The position numbers and the translations under genes were made by a program. The notes under the pieces were generated by a model. It had not been told where the DNA came from, did not search any database, and was given only the letters and a program-made list of their open reading frames with translations. From an uncultured Selenomonadales bacterium (GTDB taxonomy: Bacteria; Bacillota_C; Negativicutes; Selenomonadales; Selenomonadaceae): a stretch of DNA of 7,914 nt. Location: positions 1-7,914 of the forward strand of contig CAMJNB010000045.1 in NCBI GenBank assembly GCA_946407175.1, given 5' to 3'. Of the stretch, positions 54-7,914 are shown piece after piece. The first letter of the stretch is position 1. Each line of letters begins with the position of its first letter.

Positions 54-725
54 ATGGCAGAGTTTGACATAAAAATAGAAGTCAATTCACCGATACATTT
101 GGGTTCCGGTCAAGCCGACGTAAATTTGGACGCTGAAATTGTTCACGACGCATTGGGTTTTCCGTACTTCCCCGCCAAAAGATTTAAAGGCTTGCTTTAT
201 GAAAGCGCCGTTGAAATTTTTGAAATGTGCGAATTGGCAGGTATCGACACGAACGACTTAGCGGAGCCGGAAAAAATTTTTAACAGAAATTCCGACGACA
301 CCGGTAACGTTTCCGACGTTCAAATTATCGTGCCGAATTTTTACTTCAAAGACTTCAAAGACTACGAAAAAACTTGCGCCGAGTGGAAGTACCTGCAGAA
401 AAAATATCCCGAAGTCTTTTCGCCGACAGATATTTTGAACTCCTACAGCTCCGTGAGATATCAAACGCGGTTGGAAAACGGCATTACTGTCGACGGCTCA
501 CTTAGAAATCTGCGCGTACTTAATGCAGGCGTTGAATTTTTCGGCACAGTCACCGTACTCAATGCAAGCGACGGCGTTTTAAATTTAATAGCGTTGGCGC
601 TGAAAAATTTGTCCGCCGCCGGTACAAAGAGAAATCGCGGATTCGGTCACATAACCTGCACCGCGACTTGCGATAAAAGTTCTACGTCGAAATTTATTGA
701 AAAGTTTTTGAAAAAGGCGGTGTGA
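54..725 (+). CDS. csm3: Single-domain Cas7 (Csm3-like RAMP), type III-D backbone subunit
   Basis: This 223-residue protein is one RAMP (Cas7/Csm3) domain, close to the usual Csm3 size. The N-terminus has the family's first strand and loop (SPIHLGSG, residues 12-19), then LDAEIVHDALGFPYFP (25-40) and KRFKGLL (42-48), the counterpart of the Csm3 segment D-x-E-I-v-r-D-x-x-G-x-P-Y-I-P-G-S-S-L-K-G. The glycine loop GTKRNRGFG is at 190-198. Known for the family: Csm3 subunits polymerise along the crRNA, and one Asp in this first loop cuts target RNA every 6 nt. By alignment by eye D26, 14 residues before P40, is the candidate catalytic residue. PGSSL is replaced by PAKRF, so this subunit is divergent. 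The ATG directly follows a stop codon and lacks a strong Shine-Dalgarno sequence, so it may depend on coupled translation. Identity as Cas7 is secure; the exact position in the complex is inferred. Confidence 0.9.
   Translation: MAEFDIKIEVNSPIHLGSGQADVNLDAEIVHDALGFPYFPAKRFKGLLYESAVEIFEMCELAGIDTNDLAEPEKIFNRNSDDTGNVSDVQIIVPNFYFKDFKDYEKTCAEWKYLQKKYPEVFSPTDILNSYSSVRYQTRLENGITVDGSLRNLRVLNAGVEFFGTVTVLNASDGVLNLIALALKNLSAAGTKRNRGFGHITCTATCDKSSTSKFIEKFLKKAV
714..720 (+). promoter_or_regulatory. ribosome binding site that fixes the csx10 start at 728
   Basis: AAGGCGG ends 7 nt before the ATG at 728. The alternative GTG at 722 would leave only 1 nt between this site and the start, which is not workable. 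The protein from 728 begins MYELKFSLETLSP, with the RAMP strand at the expected distance from the N-terminus. Confidence 0.7.
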
Positions 726-727
726 CA

Positions 728-2386
728 ATGTACGAATTAAAATTTTCCCTTGAAACGTTATCGCCTGTTGTCATATCTGCAGGAAGTAACACCACGATAA
801 TGACGAAGAGCCACGACGAAATAAGCGGCTCGATAATTCGCGGCGTATTGGCATCGCGTTACGTCGAATTAAAAAAATTAGGCAACACTGCGCATGAAGA
901 TGAGGACTTCAGAAAACTTTTTTACGGCGATTTAAAATTCCTTTCCGCCACACCTGAACTTCTCGGCAAGCGCAGTTTTATTTTGCCCTTGTCACTGCAA
1001 AGCGGCAAGAAGGGGACTGACACTGAAAAAGACGTGCAAGACCTTTTGAAAGTTATAAAGACGCCTGCCGGTTACAAAAATCTGCGCGGCTACGGCGTAA
1101 GCACCGGCAATAAAATTTACAAGGCGTCCGTCAGCAAAAATATTTTTATGCATATGTCACGCAGTGACGAAGTGGAGCGAATCACCGGCAAAAGTGAACT
1201 CGGTCACATTTACAACTACGAGGCATTGGAAGGGGGACAAACTTTTTGCGGAATGATTCTCGGCACGAAAGATGACTTGGAGAAACTTTCAAAGGCGCTT
1301 AACCTGCAGAAAAATTCTTTCGCCATACGTCTCGGACGCTCGAAGTTTACGCAGTACGGCAAGTGTCGCATTACATTCAAAGAGATAGAAAAAGTTGAGC
1401 CTCCGAAAATTGACGGCGCGATTTACTTACGCCTTGACAGTCCGCTAATCCCTGTCGAAGATAATTTTTTAAGTGCGGCAGAAATTTTAAATGCAGAAGT
1501 TGTCGACGCTTTAAATGAATCTTGCGGCAAGGAAATTTTTTCGGCAGGAGAAATTTTTTCGGCAGGTGTCGAAGTTGAAAATTTTGTAGTCACTTGGACA
1601 ATGAAACGTCCGCGCGTTCAAGCCCTTGCCGCAGGTACAGTCTTTGAACTTAAAGCCGCTGAAACGTTGAATAAGAAAGATTTACAAACACTCGGCGAAA
1701 AAATTTTTGAAGGTTTCGGCACGCGCAGAGAAGAAGGTTTCGGTCAGGTACGAATTTGGAAGGCAGGGCAGTTTGAACTTGCCGCGCCTAAGGATAAAAA
1801 TAAACCCTCAAAAGATAAAAATAAATCCTCGAAGGATAAAAATAAATCCTCCGCGCAGATTAAACTTTCCAACGAAACGATTGAGACTGCAAAAAAAATT
1901 TTACTCGCCAAATGTTTGGAGCAGATGCGAATTTACGCGAATGAGGACGGCGAAAAATTAAGTCTGCAACTTAAAGGCGGAAATTATACGCATTTCTTTT
2001 CGCGCCTTGACAAGATTCTTGCAAGCGTCGACCCCAAAAATTTCCGCGCAGAATTTAAAGCGCAGCTTGAACTTGAAATTAACGCATCCAAAAACACGGA
2101 AGAAAGTCGCGGCAGTACGCAGTTTGAAGATAACTTGAATAAATTTACTATGGCGAATGAGCAAACATTTTTCAACGTGTTGACCGGTAAAGCCGAGTTG
2201 TCGTATGAAAGCCGTGACTTGAAAAAAGATTTGGTACGTGACGATGAAAAACGGAAGGCGCTGTTCAAAGATATTCCTTTAAACACAAAAGATTACGCCG
2301 ACGCATTTTGCTTTGAGTACCTGCGAAATTATTTCCGCGTTGCACGTAAGGCGGCGGCTACTGCGAAGGGAGGCGGTGACAGATGA
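728..2386 (+). CDS. csx10: Csx10, Cas5-like RAMP of type III-D, with a linked C-terminal helical domain
   Basis: From the ATG at 728 the protein has 552 residues, longer than the roughly 400-500 I expect for Csx10. Csx10 is the III-D hallmark RAMP that takes the Cas5-like place at the crRNA 5' handle. Visible marks are the first strand LSPVVIS (11-17), the Csx10-type loop ISGSIIRGVLASRYV (32-46), the segment FRKLFYGDLKF (61-71) with a downstream ATPE, and a double glycine loop GFGTRREEGFGQ (329-340). Residues 355-375 are three K-D-K-N-K-x-S repeats, an evident flexible linker. Residues 376-552 are charged and appear helical, with no RAMP motif; they may play the small-subunit (Cas11) role, which is inference. 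A 6-residue tandem duplication (EIFSAG twice) is at 269-280. The start lies 2 nt after the previous stop, and the 3' end overlaps the next gene in ATGA. Csx10 identity is strong given Csx19 nearby. Confidence 0.87.
   Translation: MYELKFSLETLSPVVISAGSNTTIMTKSHDEISGSIIRGVLASRYVELKKLGNTAHEDEDFRKLFYGDLKFLSATPELLGKRSFILPLSLQSGKKGTDTEKDVQDLLKVIKTPAGYKNLRGYGVSTGNKIYKASVSKNIFMHMSRSDEVERITGKSELGHIYNYEALEGGQTFCGMILGTKDDLEKLSKALNLQKNSFAIRLGRSKFTQYGKCRITFKEIEKVEPPKIDGAIYLRLDSPLIPVEDNFLSAAEILNAEVVDALNESCGKEIFSAGEIFSAGVEVENFVVTWTMKRPRVQALAAGTVFELKAAETLNKKDLQTLGEKIFEGFGTRREEGFGQVRIWKAGQFELAAPKDKNKPSKDKNKSSKDKNKSSAQIKLSNETIETAKKILLAKCLEQMRIYANEDGEKLSLQLKGGNYTHFFSRLDKILASVDPKNFRAEFKAQLELEINASKNTEESRGSTQFEDNLNKFTMANEQTFFNVLTGKAELSYESRDLKKDLVRDDEKRKALFKDIPLNTKDYADAFCFEYLRNYFRVARKAAATAKGGGDR
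1532..1567 (+). repeat. 18-bp tandem duplication inside csx10
   Basis: Two adjacent 18-nt units (1532-1549 and 1550-1567) are identical except for the last base. Each is GAAA, six T, CGGCAGG, then A or T. They encode EIFSAG twice. The frame is preserved, and the near identity at DNA level suggests a recent slippage event. Confidence 0.85.
1790..1852 (+). repeat. three 21-bp direct repeats encoding a K/D/N/S linker in Csx10
   Basis: Units 1790-1810, 1811-1831 and 1832-1852 share the core GATAAAAATAAA and translate as KDKNKPS, KDKNKSS and KDKNKSS. They lie between the glycine-loop end of the RAMP part and the C-terminal helical part of Csx10. Such arrays change copy number easily, so linker length may vary between strains. 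Confidence 0.88.
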
Positions 2387-3750
2387 ATAAGGCAAGCATT
2401 ATCGGCAAAATTTTAATCGAGGGCGACTTGGTATTGGTGTCCCCGCTTTTAATAGGTGACGGCGAAGGCGAAACGTCCGAAAATAAAAAAGACATTCACG
2501 TTTTAAAAAAGAAAAACATAGAAAAGCAAAAAGAAATTCCGTTTATACCCGGCACGTCACTTTGCGGCGTCCTGCGCGAATATATGACAGGCATTGAACC
2601 TAAGGCAGTCGCAAAACTTTTCGGCGACGCTACAAATTCTCAGAGCGCCATTCAATTTGACGACATAGAGCTTAAAGACGGTAAAATAATTTCGCGTGAC
2701 GGCGTAAGCATTGACGGCTTGACAGGTACCGGCATTGACGGCGCAAAGTACGATTATGAGGTGATTGACAGAGGTGCAAGCCGTAACCTTCGCATTTTGA
2801 TAAATCTGCGCGGCGCAAGCGCCGATTCTGAAAATTTTGACGCCGCGAATTACACGTTGAATGAAGTTCAAAGCACGGTTGATGAATTAATCGTAAGACT
2901 TCAACACGGCATAAGGTTGGGCGCCTTGACTGCAAAGGGATTCGGTCTTACTAAGATTAAAAACTTGACCGCCAATTTTTACGACTTCCGCAATAAAGCC
3001 GACGTTGTCGCGTGGCTTACCGATACGCCGGCGTCACGACAAATTACGCCTTCCGCCAAAACCATTTCAGACGACCCTGCCGACTTCATTGTCGACGCGC
3101 AGTTTAAATTCAATTCGTCATTCATTGTCCGCAACTACCAAGTCAGCGCCGAAGATAAGAGGAATAAAATTTCAGCCGTCAGCTTGCGAAGTAAAAACGA
3201 CTTCGTGATACCCGGTACCAGCTTGAAGGGAATTTTCCGTCACCAAGCAGAAAAAATTTTCCGTACGCTTAAACTTGACGTGACAAAACTTGAAAAGCTT
3301 ATGGGCACTTCAAAAGACTCCGGCGAAAAAATTAAAAGCCGCTTTATCGTGGCAGAAAGTTATATTGCACCGGACAAAGTTGCCGAAATTAATCACACGC
3401 GAAACAAAATTGACAGATTCACCGGCGGCACGTTGCAGGGGACGCTTTTCACTACCAAGCCCGTGTATCAGAAAACTTCCGAACCTACCGTGACGATTCA
3501 TTTTGAAATAAGAAACGCGAAAGATTTTGAGGCGGGTCTGGCGTTATTTTTACTGCGCGATATGTGGAAAGGCAACGTTGCAATAGGAGGCGAAAAGTCA
3601 ATCGGACGCGGCACGGTAAGCGGCATCAGCGCCGAAATAAAATTTCAAGGCAAGACGTACAAACTCGGTGACGGCGGCAAGGTAGTTGAAGGCGACGCGA
3701 CAAAACTTTCAGCGCTTGCCGAAACGCTTAAGAATTGGGGTGATGATTAA
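2383..3750 (+). CDS. csm3: Tandem Cas7 (two Csm3-like RAMP domains in one protein)
   Basis: The 455 residues are two complete Cas7 domains. Domain 1 (about 1-200) has SPLLIGDGEGE (20-30), FIPGTSLCGVLREYM (54-68), an LFGD turn, and glycine loop GALTAKGFG (180-188). Domain 2 (about 230-455) has IPGTSLKGIFR (276-286) and the loop IGGEKSIGRG (401-410). The Csm3 catalytic Asp lies upstream of the PGSSLKG motif; here an Asp sits exactly 19 residues before the motif Pro in both halves (D37 to P56, D258 to P277), so either or both may cut target RNA. Domain 1 also has a Csm3-like SRDGVSIDGLTGTG segment. A linker of about 30-40 residues joins the halves. The start overlaps csx10 by 4 nt (ATGA) and has a strong Shine-Dalgarno sequence, AAGGGAGG, at 2366-2373. 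The arrangement equals the Cas7-2x subunit of the III-D variant effector. The name csm3 is by family, not strict orthology. Confidence 0.9.
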   Translation: MNKASIIGKILIEGDLVLVSPLLIGDGEGETSENKKDIHVLKKKNIEKQKEIPFIPGTSLCGVLREYMTGIEPKAVAKLFGDATNSQSAIQFDDIELKDGKIISRDGVSIDGLTGTGIDGAKYDYEVIDRGASRNLRILINLRGASADSENFDAANYTLNEVQSTVDELIVRLQHGIRLGALTAKGFGLTKIKNLTANFYDFRNKADVVAWLTDTPASRQITPSAKTISDDPADFIVDAQFKFNSSFIVRNYQVSAEDKRNKISAVSLRSKNDFVIPGTSLKGIFRHQAEKIFRTLKLDVTKLEKLMGTSKDSGEKIKSRFIVAESYIAPDKVAEINHTRNKIDRFTGGTLQGTLFTTKPVYQKTSEPTVTIHFEIRNAKDFEAGLALFLLRDMWKGNVAIGGEKSIGRGTVSGISAEIKFQGKTYKLGDGGKVVEGDATKLSALAETLKNWGDD

Positions 3751-4349
3751 TGAGCGGCTTAGACTTGGCAAAGGAAGTCGGATTGCAACTGCACGAAGGC
3801 AAAATTATTTGCGAACGTGTAACTTGCGGCTGTACGTTGAGCGACGTTGAAAAAATTCTTGCCGAAAAATTTACAGACTCCCGCGCAGTTTTTATCGCGT
3901 GGCAGATTCAAAGTGTTGTTTGGGGAACTTATGAAGGCGGCAAACTTAATCTGCGCGACAAAACGTCACCTAAACCTGAAAATTGGCTTGAGTGCAGAAT
4001 TTTTAATGCTACAGAAGAAATTCACCTTAAGCGCCGTGAAAATGTTTTAAGCGGACGCTACATTAAAGACGTAGAAGGTAAAGACGTGAAAGGCGAGGGA
4101 AAATTTTACGTTGACAGCTTTGCGCGTCTTTGGGGCGAATGTGAAAAAAAAATCAGCGCGGCGGACGGATATGTAAATCTGCTTGACAGAGGACGCAAAC
4201 TTTACATGGAAATTCCCTGCGAAAAAGGCGGCGCGAAGTACTACGGACTTTTGACGCGAAATTACATTGACAGCGATGAGCATACGGGGCTTTCCGGCTA
4301 CACGGATTGCCGTTTTGTTGCGATTGAACCGGCGGAAGAGGTGAAATAA
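3750..4349 (+). CDS. csx19: Csx19 (TIGR03984-like), type III-D accessory subunit
   Basis: This 199-residue protein is not a RAMP. I recognise it as Csx19 from its order of motifs: ECRIFNATEEIHLKRR (81-96), GRY (102-104), FARLWGE (124-130), LLDRGRKLYMEIP (144-156), then YYGLLTRNYI and a final GYTDCRFVAIEP. These match the family pattern F-N-x-x-x-E-x-x-L, G-R, L-W-G, E/D-R-G-x-x-L-x-x-P, R-x-Y and D-x-R-F-V. Csx19 is confined to III-D loci and is a structural component in the fused III-D variant complex; no enzymatic activity is established. The N-terminal ~80 residues include three Cys (C21, C26, C28) without a clear metal-site pattern. The ATG shares one base with the preceding TAA and has the Shine-Dalgarno sequence GGGGTG at 3737-3742. 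Confidence 0.82.
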   Translation: MSGLDLAKEVGLQLHEGKIICERVTCGCTLSDVEKILAEKFTDSRAVFIAWQIQSVVWGTYEGGKLNLRDKTSPKPENWLECRIFNATEEIHLKRRENVLSGRYIKDVEGKDVKGEGKFYVDSFARLWGECEKKISAADGYVNLLDRGRKLYMEIPCEKGGAKYYGLLTRNYIDSDEHTGLSGYTDCRFVAIEPAEEVK

Positions 4350-6287
4350 ATGGCAAATAGCTACTATCGCGGCAACAACAACTTGAATGAAATGTCAAAG
4401 GCAACGGCGCCTTACAACTTCGTGTCACTGCCTGATAAGCCGTTACCTGCCGAAGTCACGGACGTTGCAAGCTTTAAATCTCACATTGCTGACGGCGAAA
4501 CATTCAGCGGAGAAATTCAACTTGACATTGAAACGCTGACGCCGATGTTTATAGGCGGCAATACCAAAGACACGTCGATAACTTTTTCTCCGCTCGGTAC
4601 GCCGATTATTCCCGGCAGTTCTCTGCGCGGTATGTTTAAAAATATTTTTAAAATCGTGACGTGCGGAACTTTTCGCGGTGTCACGACGTCCCAACGCAAG
4701 GGCGAAGATTTTAACGACGAACATATTTACTTCCGCTGTCTCATGGCGACTGACAAAATGCCGGAATGGACTAAAGATTTGAACGCGCTTTACAAGAGCC
4801 GCATGGAAGGTGAAAAAGGTAAAAATGCCCGCGCAGGTTTTTTGATTCAAACTAAGGACAACAAATACTTTATCGCGCCGCTGTTGCCGAAATTGGAACG
4901 CAAAAACGATTACATAATGATGAAAGATTTTCAGCATGATTATGGTAAAGTAGCTCTTTGCGATTCATTTATATTATGGGACAAGGGTACTGCGTATTGC
5001 GTGACAGGTAACCAATGGGCAAAAAACCCTGAAAAGTTGCTGGACAGAAATGCTTACGAAAAATTTAAAAAAAGTTTGAAAGGCTTGACTGACGAAGAAC
5101 GCGCCAAAAAAATTGCCGAGACGAGATATGGTAAGCAAATAATTCGCTTTGTTAAAATTGAGTATATCGATTGGAGCAAGCGCGTTGAATTGCCGGAAGA
5201 TGTACGCTTGTCCTACGTACACGACAGAAACAGGCGCGGCGTTGATCTTTTTAAAGATAGTGGCAAGCGCAAAAAAACAAACTTTGATACGGGAATTTTA
5301 AATCGCAGTCAACTTAAAGGGCTTGTGAAAAATCTTCCTGACGACGTTCAAAGTTTAGTACCTTGTCACTATCTTGAAGAAGACGGCAAAGTTACGGCGT
5401 TCGGTCACGGTCAATGTTTCCGCATTCCATACAGAAATGCAATAGGCGACGTTGTATCTGCGGAATTGCGGCAAGAAAGCACAGAGTTTGTGGACTTTGC
5501 CGACGCGGTTTTCGGCTGTGAAAAATATTGGGCAAGCCGCGTATTTTTTGACGACGCCATAACGTCCAATGCCGAGACCTTAACTAAAGCTCCCGCGCAT
5601 CCTTTAATGCAACCCAATCCCACTTCCTACCAACTTTATCTTAAACAAAGAGGAGAAAAACTTAATCATTGGGATACGGAAAAAGCAAAGATTCGCGGCT
5701 ACAAAATGTATTGGCATAAAGACGGCAATATTGATGATTGGCATGCCACGCAGGCTGAATTGGATCTTGACGCCGATAAAGATAAAGATAAACGTTTGAT
5801 TAAGGATTTGACGCCGCTTAAACCCGGTACAAAATTTATTTCAAAGATTCGTTTTCAAAATTTGAGTGCGGTTGAACTCGGTGCGCTTATGATGATTTTC
5901 AATTTAAACGACGCGAAAAAGCCTGCGTACAAAATCGGTATGGGCAAACCTTTAGGTTTCGGCAGTGTAAAAATTACACCGACGCTTTTTGTAGAGACTG
6001 CCGACGCTTACACAACACTTTTTGACGACGGCGGCTTTAAAAATCCCTACGCTGAAAAATCGCCCGCCGAATATCTTGACGCTTTCAAAAAATATCTTGC
6101 CGATAAAAAAATATTCGCAACGTGGGAAAAAGTTATGAAGGAGTTAAACGCCATTATGGATTTTGGCATTACCGTTAAAAAAGATTGGAATAGCAAAGTT
6201 GCGCAAATTCCCAGTGACTTTAAAGACAAGAAAAATAAATTTTTGACACGCGCAGTGTTGCCGAGTATTCTTGAGGTGGTAAAGTGA
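4350..6287 (+). CDS. Large Cas7-type RAMP with internal insertion (TIGR03986-like), type III-D
   Basis: The 645-residue protein begins with a short disordered leader, then APYNFVSLP (20-28), typical of the TIGR03986 RAMP family. The first strand LTPMFIGG (63-70) and IIPGSSLRGMFK (86-97) mark the Cas7 fold, with D74 at 14 residues before P88 as candidate catalytic Asp. A long insertion (about 96-380) follows, ending near VPCHYLEEDGKV and FGHGQCFRIPYRN (about 338-362). The Cas7 fold resumes at VFG...SRVFFDDA (387-403), PNPTSYQLYLKQ (422-433), IRGYKMYWH (448-456) and glycine loop IGMGKPLGFG (529-538). About 100 further residues form a C-terminal tail. Ordinary Csm3 proteins are near 220-250 residues, so the extra mass is the insertion plus tail. 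It matches the Cas7-insertion subunit of the III-D variant effector. The ATG directly follows csx19's stop, in the same frame, with AGAGGTG at 4337-4343. Family identity is strong; the insertion's role is unknown. Confidence 0.87.
   Translation: MANSYYRGNNNLNEMSKATAPYNFVSLPDKPLPAEVTDVASFKSHIADGETFSGEIQLDIETLTPMFIGGNTKDTSITFSPLGTPIIPGSSLRGMFKNIFKIVTCGTFRGVTTSQRKGEDFNDEHIYFRCLMATDKMPEWTKDLNALYKSRMEGEKGKNARAGFLIQTKDNKYFIAPLLPKLERKNDYIMMKDFQHDYGKVALCDSFILWDKGTAYCVTGNQWAKNPEKLLDRNAYEKFKKSLKGLTDEERAKKIAETRYGKQIIRFVKIEYIDWSKRVELPEDVRLSYVHDRNRRGVDLFKDSGKRKKTNFDTGILNRSQLKGLVKNLPDDVQSLVPCHYLEEDGKVTAFGHGQCFRIPYRNAIGDVVSAELRQESTEFVDFADAVFGCEKYWASRVFFDDAITSNAETLTKAPAHPLMQPNPTSYQLYLKQRGEKLNHWDTEKAKIRGYKMYWHKDGNIDDWHATQAELDLDADKDKDKRLIKDLTPLKPGTKFISKIRFQNLSAVELGALMMIFNLNDAKKPAYKIGMGKPLGFGSVKITPTLFVETADAYTTLFDDGGFKNPYAEKSPAEYLDAFKKYLADKKIFATWEKVMKELNAIMDFGITVKKDWNSKVAQIPSDFKDKKNKFLTRAVLPSILEVVK
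5775..5792 (+). repeat. short GATAAA triplicate encoding DKDKDK
   Basis: Three consecutive GATAAA units encode alternating Asp and Lys in the large RAMP, between the YWH motif and the glycine loop. It is probably a surface loop. The same GATAAA unit also forms part of the Csx10 linker repeats. Confidence 0.7.
6273..6279 (+). promoter_or_regulatory. ribosome binding site supporting the GTG start of cas6
   Basis: GAGGTGG lies 4 nt before GTG 6284 (7 nt counted from the GAGG core). The GTG overlaps the TGA of the preceding gene in GTGA. The next in-frame ATG (codon 12) would remove the first strand of the Cas6 fold, so the GTG is preferred. Confidence 0.65.
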
Positions 6288-7069
6288 TCGGCGCGGTACA
6301 TTACAAATTGCGTGCTATGCATTCTGCGCGGCTACCTTTCATAAACGGCAGACTTATGCACGCCGCCTTTTTTAAAATTCTTCACAACATTGCGCCGGAG
6401 ATTGAAACTTTTGTTCACGAAAATATGAACATAAAGCCTTTCACGGTGTCATTTCTCGACCCGCTTTCCGACTTGTCGATATTTGAGGACAGGTGGCAGG
6501 TTAAGCGCGGCGATAAATTTTTTTGGCGCGTCACCGGCTTGAACGAAGAAATTTTAAATGCCGCGTTGAATGTCCCCGAAGGCTACGAACTTCAGGCAGG
6601 GAATTTGACTTTGGAAGTTGAAGACGTCGACTCAAAAATTATTTCGGCGGAAGATTTTATTTTGAACGTCAAAGAACTTTTACCTGCCGCAGAGATTGAG
6701 TTTGAATTTTTAACGCCGGTATCTTTTCGCATTGACGACTACGACGCGCCGCTACCGCGTGCAGAATTAATTTTCCCTTCGCTTGCCGATAAGTGGACGC
6801 AAGCCCAAATGCCTGCCGACGCCGATAAAAAAATTATTCGCGATCTTGCCTCGCAGATTCGCCTAACAGAATGGCAGGGACAAAGTAAAAAATTTTATTT
6901 CGGACGTGACAGAGGGACGTTGGCTTTCTGGGGAAAATTTCGCTACAGCTTACGGCAATTTGATGACGACGTGAAAAAAGTTTTTATGTTGCTTGCAAAG
7001 TTCGCCGAGTACTCCGGTACCGGAAGGTTGAGCGGTCAAGGTTTCGGTCAAACGCGCGTAAAATTTTAA
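6284..7069 (+). CDS. cas6: Cas6 CRISPR RNA endoribonuclease
   Basis: The 261-residue length fits Cas6, which cuts precursor crRNA inside each repeat and leaves the 5' handle. The C-terminus carries the Cas6 signature AEYSGTGRLSGQGFGQTRV (241-259), equivalent to the usual A-x-Y-x-G-x-G-R-x-x-x-x-G-F-G. The N-terminal half has APEIETFVHENMNIKPFTVS (37-56), which aligns by eye with the Pyrococcus furiosus Cas6 segment holding its catalytic His46; H45 is therefore the candidate general acid/base. H34 and H26 are alternatives. The gene starts with GTG overlapping the previous stop by 4 nt and is the last gene of the effector operon, with a terminator 31 nt after its stop. No truncation is visible. 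Confidence 0.92.
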   Translation: MIGAVHYKLRAMHSARLPFINGRLMHAAFFKILHNIAPEIETFVHENMNIKPFTVSFLDPLSDLSIFEDRWQVKRGDKFFWRVTGLNEEILNAALNVPEGYELQAGNLTLEVEDVDSKIISAEDFILNVKELLPAAEIEFEFLTPVSFRIDDYDAPLPRAELIFPSLADKWTQAQMPADADKKIIRDLASQIRLTEWQGQSKKFYFGRDRGTLAFWGKFRYSLRQFDDDVKKVFMLLAKFAEYSGTGRLSGQGFGQTRVKF

Positions 7070-7099
7070 AACTTAGTCTACAAATTTAATCCGCAGTTT

Positions 7100-7130
7100 A
7101 ATCCCGTCGACACGGCGGGATTTTTTCTTT
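7100..7130 (+). terminator. Rho-independent terminator after cas6
   Basis: AATCCCG (7100-7106) pairs perfectly with CGGGATT (7116-7122), and the T-rich run TTTTTTCTTT spans 7121-7130. A few more pairs (CCG with CGG) can form in an alternative register. Its position fits the end of the cas operon. Confidence 0.82.
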
Positions 7131-7157
7131 GACTGAAAATTTTCACCGTGATAAACT
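7129..7157 (+). promoter_or_regulatory. possible sigma-70 promoter for the cas2/cas1 remnant
   Basis: TTGACT (7129-7134) and TAAACT (7152-7157) are 17 nt apart. The -35 starts in the T-tract of the cas6 terminator. A transcript would begin near 7164, almost at the ATG of the former cas2 (7165), giving little or no leader. The -10 matches the consensus at 4 of 6 bases. Confidence 0.4.
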
Positions 7158-7164
7158 TTCGGCT

Positions 7165-7830
7165 ATGAAGTAATTAATTTGTTATGATATACCGGAAGAC
7201 AGCGTACGCGCCAAAATTGTACGCTACCTTGAAGAATTTGCCTACCGAATGCAGTACAGCATTTTCAACTACAGTACACAAAAATTGCAAAGGCAGTCTG
7301 AAAAAGTTGCTACGTTTAAAACCGTTGATGAACTGCGCGGCGCAGAAGGTATTGCCGCCAAAAATTATTTCTCCGCGTTTCCTGAACTGATTAATATAAC
7401 GCGCTGGTCTTGGAAAGGTCGCTCCCAACACCCCGCCGCAGATCCTGTCAATGCACTTTTAAATTACGGCTACGCCTTCCTTGAACGTGAAGTCAGAATA
7501 GCCGCCGCAGTTGCAGGTATGGACGCACGTTTCGGCTTTTTCCATTCAAATGACGGCAGAAAAGATTCTTTGGTTTATGATTTAATGGAACTTTTCCGCC
7601 AGTCGGTTATTGACAGGTTTGTATTGACTTTATTAAATCGGAAAATGATTTCGCCTGATGACTTCGATAAATCTAAAACCGATTGCCGCCTGACTTTTGA
7701 CGCCGTGAAAATTTTTTGTACGCGCTACGAAGAATATATGTCTAAAAAGTACAGCGAATACGACGGCAAAAATACTCGTGATGTTATCTGCGAACGCATT
7801 AAAACTTTTGCGGAATGTCTGCGGCGCTGA
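7165..7830 (+). pseudogene. cas1: cas2'-'cas1 chimera: Cas2 N-terminus joined to the Cas1 catalytic domain
   Basis: In one frame, ATG AAG TAA at 7165-7173 is followed by LICYDIPEDS, RAKIVRYLEEF and AYRMQYSIFN (7174-7269), the first ~33 residues of a Cas2 with its Y-D-I-P catalytic Asp. The frame then runs straight into the C-terminal Cas1 domain, complete to TGA at 7828-7830. Counting from the ATG at 7249, the Cas1 metal ligands are all present: E33 in ELRGAEG, H99 in GFFH, D111 in LVYDLMELFR; PAADPVNALLNYGY (62-75) is also clear. Full Cas1 is about 300-340 residues, so the N-terminal beta domain (~130-150 residues) is missing, as is the second half of Cas2. The stop at codon 3 blocks expression from the natural Cas2 start. 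A 193-residue product from ATG 7249 is possible but has no good Shine-Dalgarno sequence. Cas1 and Cas2 normally form the spacer integrase, so this copy is very probably non-functional. The cause is likely a deletion in a cas2-cas1 order plus a point mutation. Confidence 0.85.
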
Positions 7831-7840
7831 AAAATTTTTC
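7829..7840 (+). other. 12-bp perfect AT palindrome after the cas1 stop
   Basis: GAAAAATTTTTC is a perfect palindrome starting within the TGA stop, and is followed by another run of seven T after TTGCAA. It is too AT-rich and loop-less to call a terminator. Confidence 0.3.
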
Positions 7841-7869
7841 TTGCAATTTTTTTCAGTCTATGGTATAAA
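7841..7869 (+). promoter_or_regulatory. strong promoter-like element reading out of the window (possible CRISPR leader)
   Basis: TTGCAA (7841-7846) and TATAAA (7864-7869) are separated by exactly 17 nt, and TGG directly before the -10 gives the extended TGn motif. A transcript would start near 7876. The 45 bases left are AT-rich and non-coding, apart from a possible ATG at 7910 with a weak site (GGA) 2 nt before it. After a cas1/cas2 pair, an AT-rich leader of a CRISPR array is a common neighbour, but no repeat unit is in view, so the target is unknown. Confidence 0.55.
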
Positions 7870-7914
7870 CTGCACAGTTGAAATTTTTGACGCAGAATTT
7901 TTTTGGAAAATGAT

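Follow-up and report, generated by a model that had tools for sequence, protein, structure and literature searches.

An in-frame cas2/cas1 stump beside an intact type III-D CRISPR effector operon: probable recent loss of the adaptation module, and its repeated decay in the Selenomonadaceae

The window, by which we mean the whole stretch of 7,914 nucleotides analyzed here, carries five genes of a type III-D CRISPR effector followed by cas6 and, downstream of these, a short stump of the adaptation genes cas2 and cas1 (Table 1). The assignment to type III-D is based on PADLOC, which identified Csx10/Cas5, Csx19 and Cas7_IIId/Csm3 (three genes) in a single operon; of the gene upstream, only about 70 bases are included, just before position 54. 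As a preliminary description of this DNA had supposed, the effector operon is intact: the six genes preceding the stump are full length and under constraint, with dN/dS ratios of approximately 0.11-0.31 against the related locus L002 and 0.10-0.25 against a second one, L001. The csx10 gene of L001 itself looks frameshifted (L001:628-2245, residues 1-72 in one frame and 76-554 in another). A CRISPR array was not seen in the window, which ends 84 bases past cas1; the array of L002 starts at 9755, 281 bases past its cas1. Searches of a plasmid collection with positions 7080-7914 and of Rfam at gathering scores returned no match, and viral contigs yielded no relative.

Table 1. Features of the window, all on the forward strand, with the profile matches and comparisons that support them.
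Feature	Position	Strand	Evidence
Cas7/Csm3-like gene of III-D effector, intact	54..725	+	PF03787 3.8e-12; Cas7_IIId 5.6e-32; dN 0.049, dS 0.233 vs L002
Csx10 / Cas5 of III-D, intact	722..2386	+	Cas5_IIId 3.9e-48; dN 0.060, dS 0.210 vs L002
Double Cas7 of III-D, intact	2383..3750	+	PF03787 3.4e-36, two stretches; Cas7_IIId 3.6e-93
Csx19 (labelled cas11 by one PADLOC model), intact	3750..4349	+	Csx19 2.7e-30
Long Cas7/Csm3 of III-D, intact	4350..6287	+	Csm3 1.6e-103; Cas7_IIId 9.4e-99
cas6, intact	6284..7069	+	PF10040 1.6e-13; 93% identity with G002/L002 counterpart
Terminator-like hairpin 3' of cas6	7100..7122	+	1 found vs 1.3 expected in shuffles, weak alone
Promoter-like TTGACT-17-TAAACT	7129..7157	+	3 sites found vs 1.5 expected, weak alone
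cas2 remnant, codons 1-35 of 91, nonsense at codon 3 (7171-7173)	7165..7269	+	
193-aa ORF from first common start after the stop: Cas2 peptide MQYSIFN + Cas1 C-terminal part	7249..7830	+	
Junction left by the deletion, joining cas2 codon ~35 with cas1 codon ~138; precise position uncertain	7270..7276	+	
C-terminal remnant of cas1 (codons ~138-317) with its original stop	7277..7830	+	PF01867 1.4e-50

The stump begins with ATG AAG TAA (7165-7173), and its reading frame is then open from 7174 to 7830. Searched separately, as the preliminary description had proposed, 7174-7269 is recognized as Cas2 (PF09827, E 8e-8, profile positions 4-34 of 74) and 7270-7830 as Cas1 (PF01867, E 1.4e-50, positions 133-283 of 283), and PADLOC agrees with both assignments; two separate and colinear profile matches of this kind are not due to chance. 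The first part is colinear with cas2 codons 1-35, with 96 of 105 bases identical to L002 and 94 of 105 to L001; eight codons differ from L002, five of them without a change of amino acid, and 11 from L001, seven of them likewise silent. The second part is colinear with the cas1 of L002 from about codon 138. The earlier reading of a Cas2 sequence running without a break into Cas1, with the N-terminal domain of Cas1 and the C-terminal half of Cas2 gone and a TAA directly after ATG AAG, is thus confirmed. The chimera it proposed does not hold in the protein sense: the combined Cas2-Cas1 frame cannot be entered from any common start codon, the first ATG, GTG or TTG past the stop being the ATG at 7249, already within the cas2 remnant. 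The locus offers neither a complete Cas2 domain in a translatable gene nor a Cas1 with both its N- and C-terminal domains, and by standard rules neither Cas2 nor full-length Cas1 can be read from it.

The open frame from 7174 to 7830 could nonetheless be taken for a fusion protein translated through readthrough of the TAA or from an unusual start, the more so as a Cas1-Cas2 fusion is on record for the type I-A system of Thermoproteus tenax, where it is described as a protein interacting with other Cas proteins (PMC3497052, PMC3513311). Both that fusion and the stump lie in one reading frame, but in the stump both domains are truncated and the start is closed. Neither fold would be complete, with codons 36-91 missing from Cas2 and codons 1 to approximately 137 from Cas1. 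Among the best 120 of 338 homologues the Cas2 motif occurs only in the window's own sequence, these being proteins of at most about 381 residues among which a full-length fusion could not be shown, and among the matches listed for 189 genomes of the family none is a Cas2-Cas1 fusion. The match nearest the query start with a long run (G137, 3-181) proved to be an ordinary cas1 cut by the contig end. A translated fusion is therefore extremely improbable; with no common start and both domains cut, we rejected a working fusion protein, and the stump is most likely a pseudogene.

Used as a query against genome contigs, the stump retrieved 12 loci, the nearest four of which belong to Selenomonadaceae from reindeer, goat and sheep records. 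L001 and L002 carry the same III-D operon followed by an intact cas2 (91 codons) and cas1 (317 codons); gene by gene, identity to the window is 84-94% for L002 and 81-88% for L001, and BLAST over the effector stretches gives 87-92% and 83-86%, respectively. An intact cas2 and cas1 also lie downstream of cas6 in L003, and in L004 within another layout, where the module does not adjoin cas6. Compared with the cas1 of L001, those of L002, L003 and L004 show 69%, 80% and 62% identity. The window thus shares with L001-L004 the kind of operon and the order cas2-cas1, whereas their modules are unbroken and, in L001 and L002, hicAB or hicB stands between cas6 and cas2. In L003 (12394-14190, minus strand) and at L084:2931-4811 (minus strand), similar proteins of about 600 residues, alike by eye at their starts, lie beyond the place of the array; these are possibly ancillary type III proteins.

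Alignment to these relatives, which the preliminary description had called for, located both the intact module and the junction, and agrees with its proposal of a deletion in a cas2-then-cas1 arrangement together with a nonsense codon silencing the start of cas2. In BLAST coordinates, a net 575 bases are missing between cas2 and cas1 relative to L002; this deletion, from about cas2 codon 35 to about cas1 codon 138, would be the second one at the locus (see below for the first), and cas2 has, in addition, its stop at codon 3. As cas2 and cas1 are in different frames in L002, an open junction is a one-in-three outcome that needs no selection. By eye, no convincing direct repeat is found at the cas2/cas1 junction of the window. 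The preliminary description had also regarded cas2 upstream of cas1 as the less common order, which our survey contradicts: across 189 genomes of the family, at least 92 with a match and cas1 genes down to 44% identity included, we counted by hand at least 31 loci with Cas2 and Cas1 matches on one contig, and among the matches listed cas2 lies upstream in 26 of 31, downstream in four and on each side in one. We therefore rejected this arrangement as an oddity; it is the usual one in the family among these matches. Two genomes (G075, G076) have two copies each of the cas2-cas1 module.

The region between cas6 and the stump has a history of its own. L001 carries a HicA/HicB toxin-antitoxin pair between cas6 and cas2 (L001:6984-7517; Pfam HicA 2.3e-17) and L002 HicB alone (L002:7868-8161), with HicB matches of 2.4e-15 and 2.3e-12 in these loci, while the window has neither gene. 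Stretches similar to the hairpin and to the promoter-like element of the window also precede hicA in L001 and hicB in L002, and a second copy of the promoter-like stretch precedes cas2 in L002, where a 51-base repeat occurs at 7832 (before hicB) and at 8192 (before cas2) with 90% identity. The HicA frame of L001, as listed, begins at a TTG inside the promoter-like stretch, and its Pfam match starts only at residue 19. In the window, the start region corresponds to the hicB-side copy of the L002 repeat up to the first codons and to cas2 thereafter. The ancestral order was likely cas6, promoter, hicAB (or hicB), cas2, cas1 and array; the hicAB stretch would then have been lost with its new edge at the end of the repeat that L002 holds twice, presumably through recombination between such copies.

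The spacer between hicB and cas2 also contains a word resembling cas1 at about codons 150-160, some 30 bases long in L002 (8158-8186) and 20 in L001 (7511-7530). The L002 word and the cas1 of L001 align over 30 columns that contain a single indel and a single mismatch (score 48; reached by 0 of 1000 plain shuffles, best 30), and the L001 word matches cas1 with a score of 30 (0 of 1000 shuffles, best 25). Other pairings are weaker or absent, the score being reached by 118 of 1000 shuffles for the L001 word against the cas1 of L002, by 337 of 1000 for L001 against L003 and by 4 of 1000 for L002 against L003. Chance similarity was accordingly rejected for L002 and less firmly for L001. The word is perhaps the scar of an earlier copy of cas1, and the intact neighbors L001 and L002 may themselves go back to a locus that had once been broken and acquired cas2-cas1 anew.

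The cas1 remnant is mosaic, with a switch near 7655 (7640-7660): before it, 91% of bases agree with L002 and 80% with L001, and after it 87% agree with L001 and 57% with L002, and in the final 78 residues the protein P0002 does not differ from the window. Measured accordingly, dN is 0.050 and dS 0.289 against L002 for 7276-7655, and dN 0.026 and dS 0.907 against L001 for 7656-7827. Since these values resemble those of live genes and no drift is visible, the damage looks recent; the absence of relaxed constraint fits a recent loss, and would also fit a retained function. The exact junction has been seen once, as the 193-residue frame (P0001) has a single member sequence on a single contig; this contig is 7914 bases long, and the window is probably the whole of it. 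A metagenome assembler might have merged the reads of several strains or skipped sequence at the junction, and a mixing of strains could also have produced the mosaic. Such an artifact is quite unlikely: the cas2/cas1 junction shows no long repeat, so that a graph error is less likely there, the proteins P0003 and P0101 reveal that this region was deleted differently on other contigs, of 3019 and 1147 bases, and comparable scars are found in other genomes of the family. We consider it highly probable that the adaptation module of this type III-D CRISPR locus was inactivated recently, in a bacterium close to uncultured Selenomonadaceae.

A retained function was considered for the 193-residue frame opening at ATG 7249, whose product would be the C-terminal part of Cas1, serving a role other than integration or acting with a Cas1 in trans. 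This frame is open, has the dN/dS of a live gene and keeps the conserved E (LRGAEG), H (FFHSND) and D (YDLME), which we take to be the catalytic metal ligands. These conserved acidic and histidine residues align with those of the solved Cas1 chains 7cr6 and 8d3l. Further open frames limited to the C-terminal part are known, namely P0003 (185 residues), P0101 (182 residues) and one in G188. However, both Cas2 and the N-terminal part of Cas1 have been lost, no clear ribosome-binding site precedes 7249 by eye, and a recent loss accounts for the open frame, which makes a retained protein highly unlikely. P0003 and P0101, known as proteins only, open with the end of hicB read out of frame and enter cas1 at LDELRG, codon 150, which looks like decay, and P0101 has by eye lost residues in a conserved stretch; in these alleles, cas2 and the N-terminal part of cas1 appear to have been lost together. 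By eye, they show the same two C-terminal cas1 types as the window mosaic, behind one kind of junction. The deletion seen in P0003 might have been caused by the word resembling cas1 between hicB and cas2, taken as a chance repeat, but the word is better explained as a relic of an earlier cas1 copy. That C-terminal-only Cas1 is a recurring product in the Selenomonadaceae, arising by separate deletions (the window; P0003 and P0101; G188) and kept for use, is very unlikely; if true, the retained part might, for example, act as a nuclease on its own or hold acquisition back.

The preferred reading, a recently inactivated module, gains its wider interest from the rest of the family. Among 21 family genomes with a cas6 at least 58% identical over nearly its full length, 13 have an intact cas2 and cas1, in some cases on different contigs (G001-G004, G057, G058, G059, G063, G075, G076, G082, G108 and G113), five have a broken or lost module and three have no match. 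The cas6 of G057 itself carries a stop. G092 has an intact cas1 but yields no match to cas2, and its likeness to relatives returns only for the final 15-18 bases of that gene; G091 shows a similar loss of cas2, with the N-terminal part of cas1 damaged and its far end cut by the contig. In G073, only cas2 codons 36-91 remain; their frame is open and follows pieces of an IS110-type transposase gene (L051:171-974), the first ORF of which matches PF01548 at 7.1e-24, and cas1 is damaged. The joined ORF has no Pfam match, and both its likeness to an IS110 end and its in-frame run into cas2 at about codon 36 were judged by eye. In G103, cas2 is frameshifted and cas1 extends only to codon 142, with one CRISPR-repeat-like word about 50 bases on. 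G080 lacks any match to cas1 or cas2, and the 6.5 kb analyzed there contain a single repeat-like word, about 230 bases past cas6; these lone words hint at a collapse of the array. The three genomes with no cas2 or cas1 match are G105, whose contig ends at cas6, G107 and G110; in relatives the module is sometimes not next to cas6. Outside the 21 genomes, a more distant cas1 is reduced to its C-terminal part in G188, G041 has a truncated cas2 with no Cas1 match, and G085 (L049) has a fragmented III-D operon in which 88 codons remain of the end of cas1. Loss of the module with the effector kept has therefore happened repeatedly in the family, with differing breakpoints. Neither this recurring decay nor the loss of hicAB or the mosaic cas1 figured in the preliminary description.

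Because by standard rules Cas2 and the N-terminal part of Cas1 cannot be made, the stump locus should not acquire spacers, whereas the effector would still be able to use crRNAs from an existing array, located past the end of the contig or at another site. The DNA that follows the window, which ends 84 bases past cas1, could hold the array or a second intact module. Acquisition in trans is known from Flavobacterium columnare, whose VI-B array is described as using the Cas1 of a II-C system (PMC8092290); the likeness is that acquisition genes at another site can serve an effector locus. In the five scarred relatives, whose assemblies are of unstated completeness, no intact Cas1 and Cas2 pair was found elsewhere. 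As a caution, the Cas1 and Cas2 family searches gave a match in 9 of 14 and 7 of 14 control genomes, respectively. In G001, the genome of L001, the III-D module is intact, and a further, distant Cas1 and Cas2 pair lies on another contig (C2:2152-3403); this genome also has a third Cas2 match. G002 and G003 have one Cas1 and one Cas2 match each. The bacterium of the window might, like G001, possess such a pair and acquire spacers in trans.

A comparable situation is described for the type III-A system of the Mycobacterium tuberculosis complex, where Beijing (RD207) and deleted-DR strains are reported without cas1 and cas2 (PMC5310062). There too, adaptation genes are deleted and type III effector genes kept in whole or in part, but the deletions are described as large and clonal, some reaching into the csm genes, whereas the window shows a small internal deletion and a fused stump in a III-D locus. 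Type VII loci, described as lacking adaptation modules, are a further known parallel. A literature search found no description of the stump locus, which is not proof of its absence from print. The stump is very likely a real, recent and ordinary case of decay, and its interest comes mainly from the repeated loss in the family: a CRISPR system is caught losing acquisition while its effector genes appear to remain under constraint, and intact and broken versions of one locus can be compared within the Selenomonadaceae. This makes it testable how long an effector survives without acquisition, and whether the array next freezes or collapses.
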